DNA from: a virus
DNA length: 37,327 nt
IMG/VR virus record: IMGVR_UViG_3300025122_000063
Span: 1-37,327 of that record
Strand: one strand, 5' to 3'
Shown here: positions 1-11,772 of the stretch, one piece after another
How positions within the stretch are numbered: position 1 is the stretch's first letter
How the letters are laid out: each line of letters opens with the position of its first letter
The notes under the pieces: generated by a model
Database searches by the model: none
Seen by the model: only the letters and a program-made list of their open reading frames with translations
Told to the model about the DNA's origin: nothing
Translations under genes and position numbers: made by a program

Positions 1-55
1 CCATGCGAGAAAACTGCTGTTTTGTCATGTGTTTTCTTGCACTACGATAATGCAT
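1..55 (-). CDS. Partial copy of conserved phage protein (start only)
   Basis: The first 18 codons of the gene complete at 36943-37266 start here (ATG at 53-55) and run off the left edge. The DNA is identical to the right-end copy, so this is the same gene seen again because the molecule is circular or terminally redundant. It is not a second gene. Confidence 0.85.
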   Translation of the reverse strand, partial: MHYRSARKHMTKQQFSRM

Positions 56-97
56 TTTTTATAAAACTCCGCGTAGTTCGGTTAAGAACGTGTTATG
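1..97. repeat. Terminal direct repeat, left copy (97 bp)
   Basis: Bases 1-97 are identical to 37212-37308. The repeat covers the start of a backbone gene plus the hemi-attC beside it. It ends at the attC core box (position 98 is C here, T at 37309), after which the two ends carry different coding sequence. The simplest reading is a circular or permuted genome assembled slightly past unit length. Confidence 0.9.
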
Positions 98-98
98 C
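57..98 (-). other. Hemi-attC site at backbone boundary (left copy)
   Basis: Read on the minus strand, the box GCATAAC (92-98) is followed by TTCTTAACCG and a near-palindrome AACTACGCGGAGTT. No clear second core box precedes the next start codon. It looks like the outer half of an integron attC fused to the phage backbone gene, so it may work only as a docking side. The call as attC-derived rests on the core box and its position at the array end. Confidence 0.6.
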
Positions 99-392
99 GT
101 CATCCCAAGACTCTTTGTCTTCTTTAATCCAGCGACGAATATCTTTTTCTGCTTGAGCTAGACATTCTTCATGGCTCTTCCCTGTCCATGTATAACTACG
201 ATTCGGTCCAATTACATAGCAAGATAGCTCAATCTGGTACTCATCAGTAAATCGGTGAGGCCAAATTAGAGCTAGCCTGCCCTCGTAACTCTTGTGATGC
301 CCGTCCATTTTTATATTGTAATCAATCGCGTCAAACAGCTCTTTTCTAAGCTGCTCAAAACGCATAACAAAGCCATCAATCGGATTGTTCAT
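93..392 (-). CDS. Cassette protein, 99 aa, family duplicated in this genome
   Basis: A soluble, acidic/aromatic 99-residue protein of unknown function. It is a close paralogue of 5220-5519 (I count 11 differences in 99 residues). The motif WTGKSHEECLAQAE at about residues 68-81 and the central RFTDEYQI are conserved. The start is set by a strong GAGGAGG ribosome site shared by both copies. The stop TAA lies inside the attC core box GCATAAC. Upstream is the compact mini-attC at 410-436. Conservation of two copies in separate arrays suggests a selected function; I do not recognise it. Confidence 0.85.
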   Translation of the reverse strand: MNNPIDGFVMRFEQLRKELFDAIDYNIKMDGHHKSYEGRLALIWPHRFTDEYQIELSCYVIGPNRSYTWTGKSHEECLAQAEKDIRRWIKEDKESWDDA

Positions 393-409
393 TCGTCGTT
401 CCTCCTCAC

Positions 410-436
410 TCTCAACCGCTTATAGCGGGGTTATGC
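410..436 (-). other. Compact mini-attC between cassettes
   Basis: On the minus strand, core box GCATAAC is followed by the stem CCGCT-ATA-AGCGG and then GTTGAGA, which resembles the closing GTTRRRY box. The whole site is only about 27 bp, shorter than usual attC sites. An almost identical element lies at 5537-5563 before the paralogous gene. The two copies diverge immediately outside the GTTAT of the core box, as expected if this is a real recombination boundary. Confidence 0.55.
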
Positions 437-649
437 GGCACAAATACCGTATTTGTTATCACTACCTCGCCACTCTTCTAGTACCTCACAAATGTCAGCA
501 TTCCGTCCTATAGAAAAAGAAGTTCCGTTGAAGTTAAAACAGATATAAGCAACATCAAACTTCTCTGCCTTTAACTTAGCTTCTTCCACTGCTTGCTCAA
601 TAGTAGTGCCAGCTAAAAATTCTACGTTAATTGTCATATTACTTTTCAT
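431..649 (-). CDS. Cassette protein, 72 aa, unknown
   Basis: A small soluble protein beginning MKSNMTINVEFL. The start at 649 is chosen because GGAGG lies just upstream, while the longer frame would run through the attC. The pattern (TINVEFLAGTT, a helix rich in E/A/K, then FNFNGTSFSIG) resembles small prophage proteins with a beta-alpha-beta-beta look, but I cannot name the family. The TAA stop is embedded in the core box GCATAAC at 430-436. Confidence 0.75.
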   Translation of the reverse strand: MKSNMTINVEFLAGTTIEQAVEEAKLKAEKFDVAYICFNFNGTSFSIGRNADICEVLEEWRGSDNKYGICAA

Positions 650-658
650 GCTTCCTCC

Positions 659-715
659 GCATAACAAATAAATGTTTCGGACTGCTTTCAGCAGCCGCAA
701 ATTAAGGGGTTATAC
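659..715 (-). other. attC recombination site
   Basis: 57 bp. On the minus strand it opens GTATAAC and closes GTTATGC. The centre is an imperfect hairpin, CGG-A-CTGCT paired with AGCAG-CCG, which leaves a single unpaired A. Such extrahelical bases set strand choice in folded attC sites. The stop of the 717-983 gene lies just before the opening box, and the ribosome site of the next gene follows the closing box. Confidence 0.85.
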
Positions 716-716
716 T

Positions 717-983
717 TCATAAATATTCGTAATTGTGGGGGGTCATTATTGTCCACTGTTTACCATTTTTATCCTCAAATCTTGTCCATTTTTTACCACC
801 AGACAAAAAATCAGATTTAATACATATAATTTTCACATCTTTAAACACCCTTACACTTTCACCATTATCATTGATCATGTGTATATTTACATGCTCCCAT
901 CTTTCAGGGTTTCCGCAACCAGTTACACATAACAACGCAATCAAAATGGACAAAGCAAGAGTGCTTTTTTTTAAGTTTTTCAT
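717..983 (-). CDS. Cassette lipoprotein, 88 aa
   Basis: The N-terminus MKNLKKSTLALSILIALLC is a clear signal peptide, followed by lipobox VTGC (Cys23), so the protein should be lipidated and membrane-anchored. The mature part is about 66 residues with several Trp and Lys (KKWTRFEDKNGKQWTIM), compatible with a small beta domain. Function is unknown. Phage-borne small lipoproteins often act in superinfection exclusion, but that is only inference here. Downstream is the attC at 659-715. Upstream is a hemi-site, not a full attC. Confidence 0.8.
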   Translation of the reverse strand: MKNLKKSTLALSILIALLCVTGCGNPERWEHVNIHMINDNGESVRVFKDVKIICIKSDFLSGGKKWTRFEDKNGKQWTIMTPHNYEYL

Positions 984-1020
984 AATCTTTAATTCCTGTT
1001 TAGTTAATTAGTTTTTGCTT

Positions 1021-1043
1021 TGCCTTTTATCGCAAGGTTATAC
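1021..1043 (-). other. Hemi-attC site
   Basis: On the minus strand GTATAAC is followed by CTTGCGATAAAAGGCAAAG, whose ends can pair (CTTTGC/GCAAAG in part). No closing GTTRRRY box is found before the lipoprotein start at 983. The segment also contains the AAAAGGCAAA motif seen upstream of many backbone genes here, so phage leader sequence may have replaced half of the attC. Confidence 0.5.
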
Positions 1044-1223
1044 GCACTGATTCCTGTGCCTTTCTCTTTCTTCTTTACAGTTAGAGTGCTGGTAATCATT
1101 GTGCGCGTAATGCTTACTCCCATGCCAGCCACATTTATCACAAATATTTTGCAGGCTAAAGTCCATACCCTCCCCACTTCTAATTAAGCTAAAATCGTCT
1201 TGTATTTGTATTGTGCTATCCAT
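1038..1223 (-). CDS. Cassette zinc-finger-like protein, 61 aa
   Basis: A short protein with CDKCGWHG near residues 29-36 and later His and Cys residues (HYAHND, HSNC), which could form one metal site. The start ATG at 1223 is preferred over the GTG at 1232 because AAAGGTG sits about eight bases upstream. The TAA stop is supplied within core box GTATAAC. A regulatory or nucleic-acid-binding role is possible. I do not recognise the family. Confidence 0.7.
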   Translation of the reverse strand: MDSTIQIQDDFSLIRSGEGMDFSLQNICDKCGWHGSKHYAHNDYQHSNCKEERERHRNQCV

Positions 1224-1246
1224 TATTTTCACCTTTATTTAATTAC

Positions 1247-1304
1247 GCATAACAACCACTAGCAACGGACTTCGCTAGCTCGCCGCTGTAGTCTTAGGTT
1301 AGGC
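1247..1304 (-). other. attC recombination site
   Basis: 58 bp. The minus strand runs from GCCTAAC, a perfect RYYYAAC box, to GTTATGC, with an internal CTAGC/GCTAG hairpin. It lies between the stop of the 1307-1495 gene and the ribosome site of the 1223 start. Confidence 0.85.
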
Positions 1305-1306
1305 GG

Positions 1307-1495
1307 TTAGAGCTTCCCATTCCACAAATCTATATTCATCTTATTCATATCATGCAACTCTCTCTTAAAGTCACCGAAACACAAATAAAAAAAAGGCAGC
1401 ATAATTAAATATTGCGCTGGAATAGCCCATGAGCAAATAATAACCCTACACAGTAATACTCTAAACATCTCTAATATTTGTATATTTTTAAACAT
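1307..1495 (-). CDS. Cassette membrane protein, 62 aa
   Basis: A hydrophobic protein with one or two membrane spans between about residues 8 and 40 (FRVLLCRVIIC, YLIMLPFFYLCF) and a charged C-terminus. GGAGG precedes the ATG at 1495. Its first seven codons (MFKNIQI) and flanking bases, 27 bp in all at 1473-1499, are identical to the start of the cassette gene at 5790-5951, although the rest diverges. Function unknown. Confidence 0.7.
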   Translation of the reverse strand: MFKNIQILEMFRVLLCRVIICSWAIPAQYLIMLPFFYLCFGDFKRELHDMNKMNIDLWNGKL

Positions 1496-1518
1496 TCTCT
1501 ATACCTCCAATAGTTACC

Positions 1519-1591
1519 GCCTAACAACAAGTTCAAGCGGATTAAAACTGTTCGCTGCGCGGTTTTAACGCGCTTAACTCAAAGGTTATAT
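1519..1591 (-). other. attC recombination site
   Basis: 73 bp. The minus strand opens ATATAAC, continues with TTGAGTTAAGC and ends GCTTGAACTTGTTGTTAGGC. These arms closely match the classic arms of aadA-type cassette attC sites as I remember them. TTAAAAC/GTTTTAA pair inside. This is the most textbook-like site in the window. Confidence 0.92.
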
Positions 1592-1819
1592 TTACTCCCA
1601 CACGCCATGTCCTTGGTATTTTCCTTCTAAGAAATAGTGGTCGCACTCAAAAGAATAATACCCAACCCCATTACCAAGTCTGAGCAACTGATCAAATTCA
1701 ATTTTGCCGTCGTACTCAACCTTGGCGGGGCATTTACCGAAACTCGCTTCTACATCAACTTCGTTGAACTTAATCCCCATATCTTCAAAGTTTTTCTTTA
1801 GTATTTCGTAGTCGCTCAT
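1592..1819 (-). CDS. Cassette protein, 75 aa, unknown
   Basis: A soluble, acidic protein beginning MSDYEILKKNFED. The start at 1819 follows a GGAG site, whereas the longer frame to 1858 would be read through the attC. The C-terminal half is rich in aromatic and Gly residues (NGVGYYSFECDHYFLEG), suggesting a small beta sheet. Function unknown. The TAA stop is directly next to the opening box of the 1519-1591 attC. Confidence 0.75.
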   Translation of the reverse strand: MSDYEILKKNFEDMGIKFNEVDVEASFGKCPAKVEYDGKIEFDQLLRLGNGVGYYSFECDHYFLEGKYQGHGVWE

Positions 1820-1833
1820 AGAAATCTCCATAA

Positions 1834-1913
1834 ATATAACAATTATAAGCAGCAGCACTACGCTGCGCTCCGTTGGACAGCGCTACGCGCTGCCTCTGTT
1901 AAAGTGGTTATGT
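1834..1913 (-). other. attC recombination site
   Basis: 80 bp, the longest here. On the plus strand it runs from ATATAAC to GTTATGT, with nested inverted repeats GCAGC...GCTGC and GCGCT...AGCGC giving a strong GC-rich cruciform in an AT-rich region. Confidence 0.88.
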
Positions 1914-1920
1914 GTATGGC

Positions 1921-2232
1921 TTATGGGGCTATAGCGTCTATAGCCTCAAGATTATAAATGTGGTACTCGTCACCCCATTTCTGCATCGCTGCTTGATAAT
2001 TTATTCCATTACTGTCTTTTTTAAGATTAAACCAAACATACGCCCCGCCATATCCATTAACTCCAAGTTTTCCCCACTGATACCCTTGATAGCCCGTAAT
2101 CTTATAGCCTGATTCTGCAAACACTCGTTGTGCATTTTCTTTTACATCTTCTTTATTGCTGTAACTGCATCCACATAACAATGCAGTCAAAAGGACAGGC
2201 ACTAACAGTATTTTTTTTGTGGTAATTTTCAT
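1921..2232 (-). CDS. Cassette lipoprotein, 103 aa
   Basis: A signal peptide (MKITTKKILLVPVLLTALL) leads to lipobox LCGC (Cys22), so this is a second lipidated cassette product. The mature region is about 80 residues, has an early KEDVKENAQRVFAESGY helix and an aromatic/Gly middle (GYQGYQWGKLGVNGYGG), and ends AIAP. Function unknown; exclusion of competing phage or envelope change is a reasonable guess only. AGAGGCAAAACC precedes the start. Confidence 0.8.
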   Translation of the reverse strand: MKITTKKILLVPVLLTALLCGCSYSNKEDVKENAQRVFAESGYKITGYQGYQWGKLGVNGYGGAYVWFNLKKDSNGINYQAAMQKWGDEYHIYNLEAIDAIAP

Positions 2233-2260
2233 TGGTTTTGCCTCTGTTATTTTTAATTAG

Positions 2261-2279
2261 TGCAGGCCTAGTGCCTGCA
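2261..2279. other. Perfect 7-bp stem hairpin
   Basis: TGCAGGC and GCCTGCA flank a five-base loop in the leader of the 1921-2232 lipoprotein gene. There is no U-tract in the direction of transcription, so I do not call a terminator. It may be a leader RNA structure or an attC remnant. Confidence 0.5.
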
Positions 2280-2305
2280 TTTTACTGCTGGGGTTATTTT
2301 ATAAA

Positions 2306-2351
2306 ATTTAACAAAGGCGTTGGTTTTCGCCTCTGTTGCTTAGGGTTATGC
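2306..2351 (-). other. Degenerate attC site
   Basis: The minus strand opens GCATAAC and contains AACAGAGGCG paired with CGCCTTTGTT (one G.T pair), then GTTAAAT. The closing box lies at the stem edge rather than pairing with the opening box, so the fold is less canonical than in the other sites. Its position after the stop of the 2346-2507 gene fits an attC. Confidence 0.55.
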
Positions 2352-2507
2352 GCCAAGCTCAGCTAAACAACCAAGCAGAACAATCCTAAATAAATCTGGC
2401 TTGTCGCGGTGCCAGTTAGTGAGCGTATTTAAACTAACTCCGGTTATCTGGCTGACATGCGTAAGGCTTTTAAGCCCTACGCTTTTTGCTTGCTGTGATG
2501 GTGTCAT
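2346..2507 (-). CDS. Cassette HTH protein, 53 aa
   Basis: A small protein with a likely helix-turn-helix (SLTHVSQITGVSLNTLTNW, residues about 15-33), matching phage and plasmid transcriptional-regulator folds. Its ATG overlaps the stop of the upstream gene as TAATG, with GGAGGTGAAATA just before, so the two are translationally coupled as one cassette. The TAA stop lies in core box GCATAAC. It probably binds DNA; the target is unknown. Confidence 0.7.
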   Translation of the reverse strand: MTPSQQAKSVGLKSLTHVSQITGVSLNTLTNWHRDKPDLFRIVLLGCLAELGA

Positions 2508-2647
2508 TATTTCACCTCCAACACTTCATAATCCAGATTTAAGCTCAAGGCAAACAATCTAAAATCTTCCATGCTTTTTACTTCTTTTGTATTTACAAAT
2601 TCTTTGTTTAAGATTTTTGAGTAGGTTTTGTAAGTTACTTTAATCAT
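2507..2647 (-). CDS. Cassette protein, 46 aa, coupled to HTH gene
   Basis: A small basic protein (MIKVTYKTYSKILNKEF) of unknown function. The start at 2647 follows GGAG, and the longer frame would begin inside the promoter. It has its own strong promoter at 2682-2709 and overlaps the HTH gene by TAATG. A promoter, small protein and DNA-binding protein in one cassette resembles a small regulatory pair or toxin-antitoxin layout. That is speculation from arrangement only. Confidence 0.65.
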   Translation of the reverse strand: MIKVTYKTYSKILNKEFVNTKEVKSMEDFRLFALSLNLDYEVLEVK

Positions 2648-2681
2648 TTTGTTTTGCTCCAGTTCTCTAGTTGATGTAATC

Positions 2682-2709
2682 ATTATACCCAACTATTTAA
2701 AGGATACAA
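2682..2709 (-). promoter_or_regulatory. Cassette-borne sigma70 promoter
   Basis: On the minus strand, TTGTAT at -35 and a perfect TATAAT at -10 are 16 bases apart, about 35 bases upstream of the 2647 start. Because all genes to the left are co-oriented, it could drive the whole of array A. Confidence 0.75.
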
Positions 2710-2739
2710 GTATTATTTTAAATTATTTGTAAATAAAGC

Positions 2740-2802
2740 GCATAACAACTAGCAGCAAACGGACTGCGCGGAAACCGCTTGCCCTTGTGCAAAAGGTTAT
2801 AT
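2740..2802 (-). other. attC recombination site
   Basis: 63 bp. On the plus strand it runs from GCATAAC to GTTATAT, with GCAA-CGG/CCG-TTGC arms and single-base bulges. It separates the backbone gene pair rdgC/46-aa ORF from the first cassette of array A. Confidence 0.85.
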
Positions 2803-2937
2803 TTCCTCAACCCAAGTACAAAACCCAGGTAAATCAATAACAAGCACCGAAAGCCGCAAACCTTCAAGATATGAACTAACCAACCTTGAAGCGTATATTT
2901 CATTTGTTTCGATTATCCTGGTAACTAAATAGAGCAT
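2797..2937 (-). CDS. Small protein, 46 aa, between rdgC and array A
   Basis: The frame starts at ATG 2937, twelve bases past the rdgC stop, with a GGAG ribosome site, and ends with TAA inside core box ATATAAC. The product (MLYLVTRIIETNEIYASRLV...) has a mixed amphipathic character and no recognisable domain. No attC separates it from rdgC, so it may be backbone sequence whose 3' end has been fused to the first attC. A frame at 2718-2903 in another phase reads through the attC and is less likely. Confidence 0.65.
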   Translation of the reverse strand: MLYLVTRIIETNEIYASRLVSSYLEGLRLSVLVIDLPGFCTWVEEI

Positions 2938-2948
2938 ATTGCACTCCG

Positions 2949-3884
2949 CTAATCGTCAAAGCCGCCAAAAACAACAACAAGCTTGGAAAAAATATCGCTC
3001 ACTGAATCCATAAAGAGCAGGGCGGTCGCTTCGTATTCTGAGCGTTTATCCGCCTCTTGATCCTGACCTGAAAAATCTTCTAACTCTTCGACTTCATAAT
3101 CAAGATTTATCGACTTCAGTGCTAGATTATCTTTTAAATGAAAATCGGCTTTTATGTGTTCCGAAATAACCCACGTTAAATATAGTTGTTGCGGCACCAT
3201 GCCCATATCAAGTATTTCTGAAATAACCTGGCTATCAATATCTACGTGCTTGACTTTTGCGGTCTGCGCAAGGTCTAAAGGGCTTTTGAATATCGCTTCG
3301 CCTTTGAAATCTATGTAGCTTGGCTCAGTGTTTTCTTTTAGCCATTCGTTCATTATTACTTCAGGCCGATATTTTGTTTGTAAAGGAATTACCGGCAAGC
3401 TTCCTAAGCGCTCTCTTAGCTGCGAAGTGAATTCGTCGCACTTCTTGATAGAATCCTGATTAATAACAAGCAGCGCCTTTTCGTGGTCGATATAGGCTAA
3501 TGTTCTTCGTTCTTTGCATAGCGCACCGGGCAGTGCATCGACAACAACTTCCTCTTTAACAACTAAGCGCTCTTTTCTGGTAAGTTGTACGCCGGATTGA
3601 TCAAAAAGTGCATCGCAGCGTTTCTTCACTTCGCGTTTAATGCTTGCGTTGTCGATATTCCGGTACACCTCAACCATACAAATGACTGTGTATCGTGGCT
3701 CACCAGCAAAAGGAATTGGCATAATAAACGAATCTGATTGCTCGAAAGGGTGACACCAGCCAAGCGAGGAAAGCTGTGTTTTATGGGGTTCGGTTACTGG
3801 AAAATCATTTAACTCTGCGAGCTTTTCGCGTGTTACCGCTTCCATGTTTGAAATTGTGAAGCATGTCGCGTTTTTAAAGATCAT
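2949..3884 (-). CDS. rdgC: RdgC-like recombination-associated protein
   Basis: A 311-residue protein matching RdgC in length (E. coli about 303) and in pattern: an N-terminal MIFKNATCFTI strand, SSLGWCHPFEQSD at about 40-52, RKERLVVKEEVVVDALPGAL at about 102-121 and LGSLPVIPL at about 162-170. RdgC binds double-stranded DNA as a ring and limits RecA access. In a phage it may channel DNA ends to RecT-type annealing. It overlaps the upstream DUF1351-like gene by four bases (ATGA) and closes the recombination operon before array A. The start follows directly from that coupling. Confidence 0.85.
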   Translation of the reverse strand: MIFKNATCFTISNMEAVTREKLAELNDFPVTEPHKTQLSSLGWCHPFEQSDSFIMPIPFAGEPRYTVICMVEVYRNIDNASIKREVKKRCDALFDQSGVQLTRKERLVVKEEVVVDALPGALCKERRTLAYIDHEKALLVINQDSIKKCDEFTSQLRERLGSLPVIPLQTKYRPEVIMNEWLKENTEPSYIDFKGEAIFKSPLDLAQTAKVKHVDIDSQVISEILDMGMVPQQLYLTWVISEHIKADFHLKDNLALKSINLDYEVEELEDFSGQDQEADKRSEYEATALLFMDSVSDIFSKLVVVFGGFDD

Positions 3885-5086
3885 AGCTCACCACCAATAA
3901 CCTGACTGCGAAGCCATGCAGCAGCTTTTTCAGTGTTGCTGAAAACCTTAGTGGCTGAATTTAAAGCCAGCTCTGTTTCGTATTCGATTAATTTATGAAT
4001 ATTGCAGATTTTTTCCAAGTCATCTGCCAGTAAATTCAAAGCGCATATATCAGGCTGAGTTAATACAGGAATATCATTCGCGCCGGTTTCGTCTATTTGC
4101 TCTTCTTCTGCCTGATCAAAACCAGAGGCCATGCCGGATGTATCAATCACATTTTTAGGAGCTTCAACCGGATAGCCACCAATGCGCTTTTCACTTTCAG
4201 GTTTTATTTCTGGTTTGGCTGATTGCGTTTCTAGCTCCGGCTCTGGTTCGGCTGGCTTGTTGGCTTCTGCTAACTGCGCCTGCAATTCATCAATTTTCTT
4301 TTGCTGCGCCGCTGCTTCCTCTTCAACTATGCGGTCCTTTTTGGCCTGCTCTTCAGCTTCTTTTTTGCGCAAGGCTTCGGCTTCGGCTTCTTTTTGCTTG
4401 CGCTCTGCCTCAATTCTAACCTGTTCTAAACGCTGCTTTTCCATTGCGATTACTTGCGTTACTTGCGCATGTGCATTGGCCTTGTTTGTTTTAGCCTGCT
4501 CGATATGATCACCAAAATCATAGCCATCTAAATCAAACGCTTCGATTGCCTGTAAGTGGCCTTGTAATGCTTCCAGTGACATACCCGGTTGAATCTGAGC
4601 AAGGCTGACAGTTAGTGTAAGATTCTTTGTCCATAGCCGTTGCTGCTCTGCTAGTCGCTCTGCTTTGATGTCATCGATGCGTTGCTTTTCTGCTTTCAGG
4701 TCATCTTCAATTATAGAGATACTTTTACGGAGTTTTTTGCCAAGGTCGATAACCTTTGAACGAAAGGCATTCAATGGATCTTTAATTGCCTTTTCCTGCT
4801 TTTCGTTATTAGTTCGATGCGTTTTAACATCACTGATAGCAGCTGTTAATTCTTTGTAATCTTCCTTACTATCAACATCTAATTGTTTTAAGTGGCTGTA
4901 TTTTTTGCCGAGCGATTCAATTGATGATTCTGTTAAGTCATAAGTGACTGCTTCGGGATACTGGATAGCAACCGCGCTTGTATCGGTGGTTTTTGAAACA
5001 CTTGCTTTTGCCAATTGTGTATGGCCTTTTTCCTCAATGCTTGCGATTGTCTCTACTGACTGAACAGCCTTTTTTTCATTACTCAT
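3881..5086 (-). CDS. DUF1351-like coiled-coil protein
   Basis: 401 residues. Residues about 45-150 resemble the phage DUF1351 domain (a helical segment KDPLNAFRSKVIDLGKKL). A long Glu/Lys/Ala/Gln coiled coil follows at about 215-275, then a Pro/Glu-rich linker and a helical C-terminus. DUF1351 proteins are found beside phage recombinases, and a role in handling single-stranded DNA or the recombinase is inferred. It has its own promoter and operator at 5125-5167 and the AAAAGGCAAA leader before ATG. The intervening cassettes were therefore inserted in a natural operon gap. Confidence 0.75.
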   Translation of the reverse strand: MSNEKKAVQSVETIASIEEKGHTQLAKASVSKTTDTSAVAIQYPEAVTYDLTESSIESLGKKYSHLKQLDVDSKEDYKELTAAISDVKTHRTNNEKQEKAIKDPLNAFRSKVIDLGKKLRKSISIIEDDLKAEKQRIDDIKAERLAEQQRLWTKNLTLTVSLAQIQPGMSLEALQGHLQAIEAFDLDGYDFGDHIEQAKTNKANAHAQVTQVIAMEKQRLEQVRIEAERKQKEAEAEALRKKEAEEQAKKDRIVEEEAAAQQKKIDELQAQLAEANKPAEPEPELETQSAKPEIKPESEKRIGGYPVEAPKNVIDTSGMASGFDQAEEEQIDETGANDIPVLTQPDICALNLLADDLEKICNIHKLIEYETELALNSATKVFSNTEKAAAWLRSQVIGGEL

Positions 5087-5124
5087 AACATTTGCCTTTT
5101 GATTTAGTAATAACTTGAATTTAC

Positions 5125-5153
5125 ATATTAGGATAGTATTTGCAGAAAGTAAA
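5125..5153 (-). promoter_or_regulatory. Promoter for DUF1351-like gene and rdgC
   Basis: The minus strand shows TTTACT (-35) and TAATAT (-10) with 17-base spacing. The -35 box overlaps the operator-like dyad at 5148-5167, which suggests repression by a phage regulator. Confidence 0.6.
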
Positions 5154-5167
5154 GCTTATATATTACA
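5148..5167. promoter_or_regulatory. Operator-like dyad GTAA-N10-TTAC (site 1)
   Basis: The 20-mer AGTAAAGCTTATATATTACA is identical at 19 of 20 positions to 8931-8950, and its dyad recurs at 7525-7544. All three lie in front of leftward early genes, so they are likely operators for one repressor, perhaps the Cro-like protein at 8964-9200. Confidence 0.6.
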
Positions 5168-5171
5168 GAAT

Positions 5172-5225
5172 ATATAACACTGATTAGCACCGGACGCATT
5201 CGCGCCGGTGTAATACCTGTTATGC
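5172..5225 (-). other. attC recombination site
   Basis: 54 bp. On the plus strand it runs from ATATAAC to GTTATGC. TTAGCACCGG pairs with CCGGTGTAATA around a short loop, with unpaired bases near the tip. It marks the junction between array B and the DUF1351-like/rdgC backbone block. Confidence 0.9.
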
Positions 5226-5519
5226 GTCACCCCAAGATTCTTCGTCTTCTTTAATCCAACGCCTAATATCTTCTTCTGCCTGCGCTAAACACTCTTCATG
5301 ACTCTTTCCTGTCCAAGTGTGGCCACGGCTTGGGCCGATTACATAGCAAGATAATACGATCTGATATTCATCGGTAAAACGATGAGGCCAAATTAATGCA
5401 AGCTTACCCTCATAGCTTTTGTGATGCCCGTCCATTTTTATACTGTAATCAATAGCGTCAAACAGCTCTTTTCTAAGCTGCTCAAAACGCATAACAAAGC
5501 TATCAATCGGATTGCTCAT
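5220..5519 (-). CDS. Cassette protein, 99 aa, paralogue of 93-392
   Basis: Same length and start context as 93-392, with I count 11 substitutions (for example E55V and a K93E charge swap). The GAGGAGG ribosome site and mini-attC leader are conserved. Similarity stops at the core boxes on both sides, so this is a whole duplicated cassette, not a local gene duplication. The TAA stop lies inside core box GCATAAC. Function unknown. Confidence 0.85.
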   Translation of the reverse strand: MSNPIDSFVMRFEQLRKELFDAIDYSIKMDGHHKSYEGKLALIWPHRFTDEYQIVLSCYVIGPSRGHTWTGKSHEECLAQAEEDIRRWIKEDEESWGDA

Positions 5520-5536
5520 TCGTCGTTCCTCCTCAT

Positions 5537-5563
5537 TCTCAACCGCTTATAGCGGGGTTATAT
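5537..5563 (-). other. Compact mini-attC between cassettes
   Basis: Same structure as 410-436: an opening box (ATATAAC here), the CCGCT/AGCGG stem, then GTTGAGA. The outer neighbour differs from the other copy starting right after GTTAT. Confidence 0.55.
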
Positions 5564-5715
5564 TACTTTTCATCAGGGTTAAATTTTGGCCGACTAAAAT
5601 ACCAAGAAAAATATTTTTTCCGATACCTCAGAGCGTAATAAAAGTTAAACTCATAACCTATCGTCAGGCTTTTTACTGCTATAAATATCAATGTGTAATG
5701 TAATAACTCGCTCAT
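5563..5715 (-). CDS. Cassette protein, 50 aa, possible membrane anchor
   Basis: The frame starts at ATG 5715 with GGAG upstream and stops with TAA next to the ATATAAC box. The N-terminal part (ELLHYTLIFIAVKSL) could span or bind a membrane. The C-terminal half is basic and aromatic (RYRKKYFSWYFSRPKF). No family recognised. Its position between two attC-type sites supports it as a cassette gene. Confidence 0.65.
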   Translation of the reverse strand: MSELLHYTLIFIAVKSLTIGYEFNFYYALRYRKKYFSWYFSRPKFNPDEK

Positions 5716-5735
5716 CTTCTCAATCTCCTATCGTA

Positions 5736-5795
5736 ATATAACAACGCTCTCATGTCGGACACGCTACGCTTAGCCGCATAGCGCAAAGGTTATAC
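5736..5795 (-). other. attC recombination site
   Basis: 60 bp. On the plus strand it runs from ATATAAC to GTTATAC, with arms CGCT/AGCG and an inner GCTA...TAGC hairpin. Confidence 0.82.
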
Positions 5796-5951
5796 GGATC
5801 TCTCCTTTAAGCTTTGTATAACAATAAGCAGCAAACACAGCACAGACAAAGCAACGGGGAAAACTATATCTGCCAAATGTCCTTGATCTACTCTCCACAG
5901 GCAAGCATTGACAAGAAAGCCAAGCATAAATATTTGTATATTTTTAAACAT
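5790..5951 (-). CDS. Cassette membrane protein, 53 aa
   Basis: Starts MFKNIQIFMLGFLVNACLW and has a second hydrophobic stretch near residues 29-46 (VFPVALSVLCLLLIVIQ), so probably two membrane segments. The TAA stop is within core box GTATAAC. Its first seven codons plus flanks (27 bp, 5929-5955) are identical to the start of the 1307-1495 cassette gene, after which the two diverge. The genes share either ancestry or an exchanged 5' module. Function unknown. Confidence 0.7.
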   Translation of the reverse strand: MFKNIQIFMLGFLVNACLWRVDQGHLADIVFPVALSVLCLLLIVIQSLKERSV

Positions 5952-5975
5952 TCTCCATCTCCGTAATTAATAGCC

Positions 5976-6034
5976 GTATAACAACGGCATTAAAATCGAC
6001 CTCGTACCTCGGCGCTTTATGCCCAAGGTTATAC
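5976..6034 (-). other. attC recombination site
   Basis: 59 bp. On the plus strand it runs from GTATAAC to GTTATAC. GGCAT-T-AAA pairs with TTT-ATGCC, leaving one extrahelical T, with a further CGA/CG inner stem. Confidence 0.87.
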
Positions 6035-6037
6035 GGC

Positions 6038-6226
6038 CTAAATGTATTCTCCCGTGTCCAAATCAAAATCTACAACAGGTACATCTTCCCAGTTCAAATC
6101 TTTACCTCTAGGGCGGAACTGCAAGACTTGAGATTCTTCTTGCTTAACCATTCTTGCAGGCTCTCCAATAACCTCGGTAATCTCTGGTATGGTTTTAAAG
6201 CTTCTTAAAATTCTAAATTCGTACAT
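6038..6226 (-). CDS. Cassette protein, 62 aa, unknown
   Basis: A soluble, acidic protein (MYEFRILRSFKTIPEITEVIGEP...) ending VDFDLDTGEYI. The stop TAG lies three bases before the opening attC box, unlike most cassettes here, which use the TAA of the box. An AGAGGG ribosome site precedes the start. No recognised domain. Confidence 0.72.
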   Translation of the reverse strand: MYEFRILRSFKTIPEITEVIGEPARMVKQEESQVLQFRPRGKDLNWEDVPVVDFDLDTGEYI

Positions 6227-6255
6227 AATCTAACCCTCTTATTAATTCACGGCCT

Positions 6256-6303
6256 TTATAACAACCAAGTGCAGCGGATAAACCGCTGACTTCAAGGTTA
6301 TAC
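6256..6303 (-). other. attC recombination site (cleanest fold)
   Basis: 48 bp. On the plus strand TTATAAC, then AAGT-G-CAGCGG, loop ATAAA, CCGCTG-ACTT, then GTTATAC. The pairing is perfect apart from one unpaired G, the classic extrahelical base. It forms the upstream boundary of array B. Confidence 0.92.
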
Positions 6304-6582
6304 CCACGACCCCTGTGCAATAGCTAGAACATTATCAGACACTCCGAATCTATGCCTAAAATCAAACATGTAGTTTTTTTCTAAAACTGAAATAGTATTT
6401 CTGTGCTTGATCTTTCTGCCGGTTGCGCGCTTATCTTTAGTTAATACAGCGCCATGTTTTTTGCAAAACCTGATAACCTGGGTAGGCGTAACACCATACT
6501 CACGGCAGATAGCCGCGTTGGTCATTTTGTTTTTTAACCATCGCGGAATATCTTCTTTTTTTAGTGGTTTTTTATCGTTCAT
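6298..6582 (-). CDS. HTH DNA-binding protein, 94 aa
   Basis: A likely helix-turn-helix lies at about residues 19-39 (MTNAAICREYGVTPTQVIRFC), followed by a basic stretch (TKDKRATGRKIKHRN) and a helical C-terminus. The leader has the AAAAGGCAAA motif typical of backbone genes, but the TAA stop is inside the attC core box GTATAAC. This gene is therefore the backbone/array junction. It may be a regulator of the early operon or the first captured cassette. Confidence 0.75.
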   Translation of the reverse strand: MNDKKPLKKEDIPRWLKNKMTNAAICREYGVTPTQVIRFCKKHGAVLTKDKRATGRKIKHRNTISVLEKNYMFDFRHRFGVSDNVLAIAQGSWV

Positions 6583-8907: not shown

Positions 8908-8950
8908 AATCTATATTACTATTAACCAATAGTAAAGCTTAAATATTACA
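8908..8950. promoter_or_regulatory. Divergent early control region with operators (site 3)
   Basis: TTACTATT-AACC-AATAGTAA (8916-8935) is a perfect 8-bp dyad. It overlaps the 20-mer AGTAAAGCTTAAATATTACA (8931-8950), which is shared with the DUF1351-like gene promoter. A leftward promoter can be drawn as TTTACT (8931-8936) and TAGATT (8908-8913), 17 bases apart. The region separates the leftward recombination operon from the rightward Cro-like/lysis genes and likely forms the early regulatory switch. Confidence 0.6.
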
Positions 8951-11100: not shown

Positions 11101-11772
11101 TTAAATACGCTTAAACTCCACAACCCATACCCAAGGATTAGAATCCCATGATTCAGCGCCGTTGATTGAGCACCACAAAGAATCAAAGCTATTCTTTGCT
11201 ACAGCGAAAAAACCAGCACCCTCGTAGTTTTTCCAGCCCTTCAGTCCTAAAGCGTCAAAATACTCAACACCTTCCGCCTTTGCATCTTCCTCTGAAATAT
11301 CATTCAAGCGCTCTACTCGAATATCAACTATTTCCAGCTTTATCCTACAAAAAACTTTCTTCATGTGAATAGATGGCATCGCTATATGTTCATACCCAAA
11401 ATAATCAAACAGCTCTGGATAGAATTTATCTAAATCTAAAGACTTTCTATCGGCTGCGTAAAAGTAATTACCTTTTGGATTGTCGGTATTTTCACGCTTT
11501 ATAGTCTCGCGCACCCAAAGCACATCGCCAACTTTTCCGTATGGGCATTTAGGATAAATATATCTTGAGTTGTGGCTATGATGTATTAATTCAAATCCTT
11601 GTTTATCAAGAGATTCTCTTGCTTGATCTGTTAGCACTTGCGGTTTATCCATTGGAGCAAAAATACCCTCTGACGATGTTTTGGGCTTTATCACACGCCT
11701 AGTCTGATTTTTACGGCCATCCAATATCGCATTCACCATATCGCCATTAAATAAAATCGGTCTTTCTTTCAT
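11101..11772 (-). CDS. ASCH-like phage protein, 223 aa
   Basis: Contains a signature common in phage ASCH-like proteins: KERPILFNGDMVNAILDGRK at the N-terminus, TRRVIKP, CPYGKVGDVLWVRET near 85-99, RIKLEIVDIRVERLNDISEE near 143-162 and NPWVWVVEFKRI at the end. ASCH domains have a PUA-like RNA-binding fold. The specific target is unknown. Its ATG overlaps the csrA stop (TAATG), so the two are co-translated. Confidence 0.8.
   Translation of the reverse strand: MKERPILFNGDMVNAILDGRKNQTRRVIKPKTSSEGIFAPMDKPQVLTDQARESLDKQGFELIHHSHNSRYIYPKCPYGKVGDVLWVRETIKRENTDNPKGNYFYAADRKSLDLDKFYPELFDYFGYEHIAMPSIHMKKVFCRIKLEIVDIRVERLNDISEEDAKAEGVEYFDALGLKGWKNYEGAGFFAVAKNSFDSLWCSINGAESWDSNPWVWVVEFKRI

Follow-up and report, generated by a model that had tools for sequence, protein, structure and literature searches.

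Clusters of attC sites lacking an integron integrase (CALINs) have already been published for phages, and the integrase IntI1 was reported to recombine the attCs of phages TJE1 and PH101 in an assay (Qi et al., 2023, PMC9892861; here and below, statements on this article refer to its available portion). In that portion, the PH101 cassettes are described only as oriented in the same direction, and reversal is not mentioned. In this work, an array of this kind was analysed in a window of 37,327 bp, which is the whole of the IMG/VR virus record IMGVR_UViG_3300025122_000063. With a probability of about 85%, we consider that this phage carries an integrase-less, integron-type array of ~14 cassettes, which would be exchanged by IntI in trans and whose alleles would be blended by phage homologous recombination.

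Results

The virus record contains genes for terminase, portal, RecT, ExoVIII, RdgC, and RtcB. Its contig ends overlap, with bases 1–97 repeated exactly at the right end, so the genome is probably near-complete. The genes for RecT and an exonuclease are located near the array. A search with TIGR02249 (IntI) was empty for this phage and for its sibling IMGVR_UViG_3300033388_002942. The phage therefore lacks a detectable intI gene, which a complete integron would have, and its array contains at least two attCs close together without IntI, which is the definition of a CALIN. A CsrA-family regulator (PF02599) is encoded by the phage at 11772–11984, and a CsrA-like ORF is also present in the sibling at 2247–2420. 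The early region of the sibling (1–4079: putative DNA methyltransferases, CsrA) differs from this phage up to 13582, where RtcB and other genes are the counterpart of the sibling's 1–4079; this sharp replacement adjoins a replication gene. Furthermore, two near-identical copies of a 19-bp motif, AGTAAAGCTTWWATATTAC, were found at 5148–5166 and 8931–8949 upstream of two leftward operons (0.04 expected by chance), and this motif probably serves the phage as an operator or as part of a promoter.

The R' boxes at 92, 430, 709, 1037, 1298, 1585, 1907, 2293, 2345, 2796, 5219, 5557, 5789, 6028, and 6297 delimit ~14 contiguous attC-bounded cassettes at 93–6297. All ORFs of the array are on the − strand, and many of their stops coincide exactly with the TTA of G/TTA (coding strand TAA/C; the slash marks the crossover). 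Besides the two copies of the 99-aa cassette described below, the simplest units have one ORF each: cassette 2 (431–709; ORF 431–649 of 72 aa, attC 659–715), cassette 4 (1038–1298; ORF 1038–1223, attC 1247–1304), cassette 5 (1299–1585; ORF 1307–1495, attC 1519–1591), cassette 6 (1586–1907; ORF 1592–1831, attC 1834–1913), cassette 12 (5558–5789; ORF 5563–5715, attC 5736–5795), cassette 13 (5790–6028; ORF 5790–5951, attC 5976–6034), and cassette 14 (6029–6297; ORF 6038–6226, attC 6256–6303). The gene following cassette 14 (6298–6582, HTH) likewise ends in a core box. Lipoprotein-like ORFs are present in cassette 3 (710–1037; ORF 717–983, attC about 927–1043, matched as a held-out site at 31.5 bits) and cassette 7 (1908–2293; ORF 1921–2232), where the attC at 2173–2299 was recognised by arm pairing, not by a model match, and has the R' box GTTATTT. 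In both, at 927–983 and 2173–2232, R'' (coding strand GTTATGT) encodes part of the predicted lipobox (ALLC...C). A gene-less mini-cassette (2294–2345) contains only attC 2306–2351. It is followed by cassette 9 (2346–2796; attC 2740–2802) with the ORFs 2346–2507, which is phage HTH-like and has relatives in marine phages, and 2507–2683. The large unit at 2797–5219 on the − strand (ORF 2797–2937, RdgC 2949–3884, a 401-aa ORF 3881–5086, attC 5172–5225) is cassette-like and may be a true cassette; alternatively, it may be a stretch of phage backbone that separates two arrays. Searches for cassette protein functions in Pfam, PHROGs, NCBIfam, PADLOC, and PDB sequences gave nothing useful, and the sole match of the cassette 6 protein among viral contigs was the sibling phage. 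The ORFs 1307–1495 and 5790–5951 of different cassettes have a common start, MFKNIQI, together with its DNA (30 bp, 97%), which also suggests that exchange has taken place inside the array.

The attC sites were detected in two ways. A scan of the 37-kb sequence for R''/R' pairs gave 11 sites, all on the + strand and all between 362 and 6034, with shuffled sequences yielding 0–7 for both strands. A covariance model was built on ten sites with the attCs of both 99-aa cassettes held out. It recovered these held-out sites and 924–1043, and outside the array it gave no other match in 37 kb. The same model also recovered the three published TJE1 attCs and the attCs of Shewanella phage M16-3. The focal attC (5489–5563, + strand) is a full site of 75 nt matched at 36.8 bits (E 1.7e-5) and overlaps the gene start, so that R'' (GCATAAC) is within codons 9–11, the loop contains the ribosome site, and R' is GTTATAT. 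The attC of the second copy (362–436, + strand) is also full and 75 nt long (36.4 bits, E 2e-5). The initial annotation had described the two cassettes as sharing coding sequence, ribosome site, and a mini-attC leader; the shared cassette is real, but the mini-attC was ruled out once R'' was found inside the ORF, the leader being only the right arm of the full attC.

In all strong sites, the R boxes measure 7 bp and the L boxes 5 bp, the spacer is unpaired, and the left arm has extra bases; this combination of L boxes, spacer, and one-arm extrahelical bases was found in the array sites as in attCs generally. Nearly every site has its extrahelical bases on the left arm (21 bases left vs 6 right over the array), with 2306–2351 as a weak exception. 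The core GTTRRRY with a complementary R'' was found in 14 sites, mostly as GTTATRY or GTTAGGC and once as GTTATTT; the fifth base of GTTAT does not fit a strict RRR, which is also true of many control sites. Compared with shuffles, the bottom strands of 5172–5225, 6256–6303, and 2306–2351 form much better folds (z −4 to −5.4) and the other sites weakly better ones, and covariation across the ten aligned sites is modest. By blastn, the attCs had no match in plasmids, and an attC pattern search of bacterial genomes gave 8 scattered matches and no source integron. The attC model found no attC in related phages and 24 relatives chosen by portal or RecT; thus, the array is not a long-standing part of the phage backbone.

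On the basis of the extrahelical bases and box consensus, the attC top strand is on the + strand, and the array genes are on the − strand, so their orientation is reversed, a feature that the initial annotation had missed. The ORF of a canonical cassette is oriented as its attC, whereas 13 of 13 sites are reversed here vs 0 of 30 in bacterial integrons. Among the controls, TJE1 has both attCs and genes on +, and M16-3 has both on −, beside IntI. The bacterial control included 274 sampled genomes of Gammaproteobacteria (the class of Legionella massiliensis), and IntI was above the cut-off in 103 of them. The array-side flanks from 20 of these IntI carriers were scanned, with attC matches accepted at E up to 1. 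All 30 attC matches were on the strand expected from intI, and the ORFs of their own cassettes were canonical (30/30).

Further viral contigs were chosen by attC DNA patterns and the attC model. PHROG matches (terminase, DnaB, DNA polymerase, RecT or Sak4, and others) support their phage nature. The reversed group consists of this phage, PH101, and the arrays G004, G005, G006, G007, G008 (two arrays), G010, and G014. In integrase-less phage arrays, this phage included, 44 of 50 sites had reversed own ORFs, and all viral sites scored, with TJE1, M16-3, and five doubtful contigs included, gave 49 reversed, 16 canonical, and 1 unscored; these counts rest on a simple ORF-calling procedure, sites of one and the same array are not independent, and arrays were grouped as reversed after the data had been seen. 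The 52.7-kb phage IMGVR_UViG_3300032277_000005 has no IntI and at least 13 attCs, which form two reversed arrays, one on each strand. In Pseudoalteromonas phage PH101, the attCs at 75500–79500 are on + and the annotated genes on −, which is also the reversed layout. No description of systematic cassette reversal in phages was found in the literature searched, which excluded most subscription papers and all preprints, so its novelty is not proven.

The focal cassette (5220–5557, − strand) includes the 99-aa ORF 5220–5519, whose stop TAA is the TTA of the core G5219/TTA, and its attC. The second copy (93–430, − strand) includes the ORF 93–392 (99 aa) with 89% protein identity to the focal ORF. 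In a gap-free alignment at offset 5127, the identity of the copies is 87% within the cassette and no higher than chance beyond it. This agrees to the base with the earlier claim that 93–392 and 5220–5519 are alike only between core boxes, and no similarity past these boxes was found. The copies match over 93–434, and the nearest flanking mismatches at 90 (left) and 435 (right) place the breakpoints at G92/T93 and G430/T431, within the ambiguity of the shared core (left TG/TTATGC, right G/TTAT). The two copies differ at 45 of 342 bp and in 11 amino acids. A recent duplication is ruled out by this divergence, and because it is mostly at third codon positions (29 of 44 coding differences), the copies represent old alleles. 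They are also mosaic, with an identity of 81% over 93–300 vs 96% over 301–434 (changepoint ~292, Fisher p = 1.4e-5); homologous exchange, or constraint, thus acted on the attC-proximal part. Two copies do exist as first annotated, but the pair is old and mosaic and not a simple duplication; judged from sequence, it probably represents two alleles of one cassette acquired on separate occasions. A counterpart in bacterial integrons, a possibility raised by the initial annotation, was found neither there nor elsewhere in the searches: the 99-aa protein had no relatives in phages, plasmids, viral contigs, or genome contigs, and hence there was no direct sign of a cassette moving from one genome to another. 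Its AlphaFold model (pLDDT 68) gave no significant match in a fold search.

The left boundary site (74–98, + strand; G92/T93) is attI/attG-like and not an attC. It acts like an insertion site, but without an adjoining intI and without an attC fold. At least three different sequences follow G92/T93, namely the 99-aa cassette in this record, an allele of cassette 2 in the sibling, and another cassette-like sequence at the right end of the record. At this right end (37212–37327, + strand), the 97-bp repeat is followed straight after GTTATG by a different sequence, TGTCTTGGTTGTCGATTTC, for which an exact search gave no match. Such divergence would be explained by an assembly branch between two cassette alleles of one population. 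The sibling is 100% identical over 35400–37308 and on to GTTATG at 97, past which it continues with cassette 2 in place of the 99-aa cassette. Its cassette 2 has 26 differences within 446–574, and over 575–2600 the two phages are identical. Because of the differences over 446–574, clean excision does not account for the sibling junction, and homologous recombination took part. Three sequences after one boundary are what site-specific cassette exchange predicts.

Discussion

Integrase-type mobility, as the initial annotation had proposed, is the best reading of these sequences, since R' boxes of attCs confirmed by the model form the edges of the cassettes and three sequences follow one G/TTATG boundary. 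The array (93–6297) is located in the leftward early operon of the phage, and on the coding (−) strand each unit consists of the attC as leader, the ribosome site, the ORF, and TAA, with the crossover directly after the stop. We hypothesize that the host, or a co-resident element, supplies an integron integrase in trans, and supply by the host is plausible because IntI is present in 103 of the 274 sampled Gammaproteobacteria. The integrase would fold the attC bottom strand and insert or remove cassettes at the left boundary and between attCs, and phage homologous recombination (RecT, exonuclease) would blend alleles within cassettes. Phage promoters upstream, on the right, would transcribe all cassettes. 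Moreover, the recombinogenic strand would be the coding strand displaced in transcription, which may favour attC folding. Because the crossovers fall between the stop codon and the next leader, cassettes could be swapped without breaking their operon neighbours.

It is rather unlikely that the array is a relic, in which the cassettes were acquired long ago by an integrase, the attCs are now inert, and all variation comes from phage homologous recombination. The lack of IntI, the encoded RecT and ExoVIII, and the clear homologous mosaicism of cassette 1 (changepoint ~292) and cassette 2 (446–574) would fit such a relic. However, paired R and L boxes with extrahelical bases have been kept in almost all sites, and one boundary with a 100%-identical flank is followed by three different sequences, whereas homologous exchange of unrelated cassettes needs homology on both sides and only the 6-bp core is shared. 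Much less probable is that the hairpins only resemble attCs and serve the phage operon as RNA leaders or in RNA processing. Their position as coding-strand leaders ahead of ribosome sites and the good folding of some of them would fit this, but the R''/R' core identity and the left-arm extrahelical bases argue against RNA elements, the model cross-matches published TJE1 sites and bacterial integron attCs on the right strand, and the hairpins had no match in Rfam. Least probable of all is an ordinary gene duplication by homologous or illegitimate recombination ending at core boxes by chance, which would account for two gene copies in one genome. The boundary alleles and the attC setting already contradict it; both edges are on R' boxes of confirmed attCs, and the copies are 13% diverged and located in different cassette neighbourhoods.

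The reversed layout is present in other viruses but not in the bacterial integrons checked, so phages may run a parallel pool of exchangeable genes. The chances are about even that phages keep their own pool of back-to-front cassettes, in which the recombinogenic attC strand doubles as the coding strand and the crossover is behind the stop, and exchange them via host integrases in trans. If so, the reversed polarity would keep the phage pool functionally apart from the bacterial one, as a bacterial cassette would be antisense in a phage array and a phage cassette silent in a bacterial integron. The reversed array would offer phages modular, scarless swapping of small accessory genes, and its boundary is polymorphic in a natural phage population. 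Orientation would also be a simple readable feature for telling phage from bacterial cassettes, and both the origin of reverse-oriented cassettes in bacterial integrons and the service of host integrases to phages become testable.

Comparison with known systems

The phage CALINs of TJE1 and PH101 are integrase-less like this array, and their sites were found by the attC model of this phage. Compared with the CALINs in the available portion of Qi et al. (2023, PMC9892861), the present array is longer (~14 cassettes) and, unlike them, has boundary alleles, seen in the sibling and in the same contig. Here the stop codons are in the core box, and the genes and their attCs have opposite orientations; according to the model PH101 is reversed too, whereas TJE1 is canonical. 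Shewanella phage M16-3 and Vibrio phage p16 also have integron parts in a phage genome, but both carry IntI, unlike this phage; the M16-3 cassettes are canonical, and the p16 attCs gave only weak model matches. From bacterial sedentary chromosomal and mobile integrons, this array differs in having neither intI nor Pc and in the opposite direction of its genes (0/30 bacterial sites reversed). On the other hand, it shares with them the attC anatomy, the G/TTRRRY boundaries, and small promoterless genes of unknown function.
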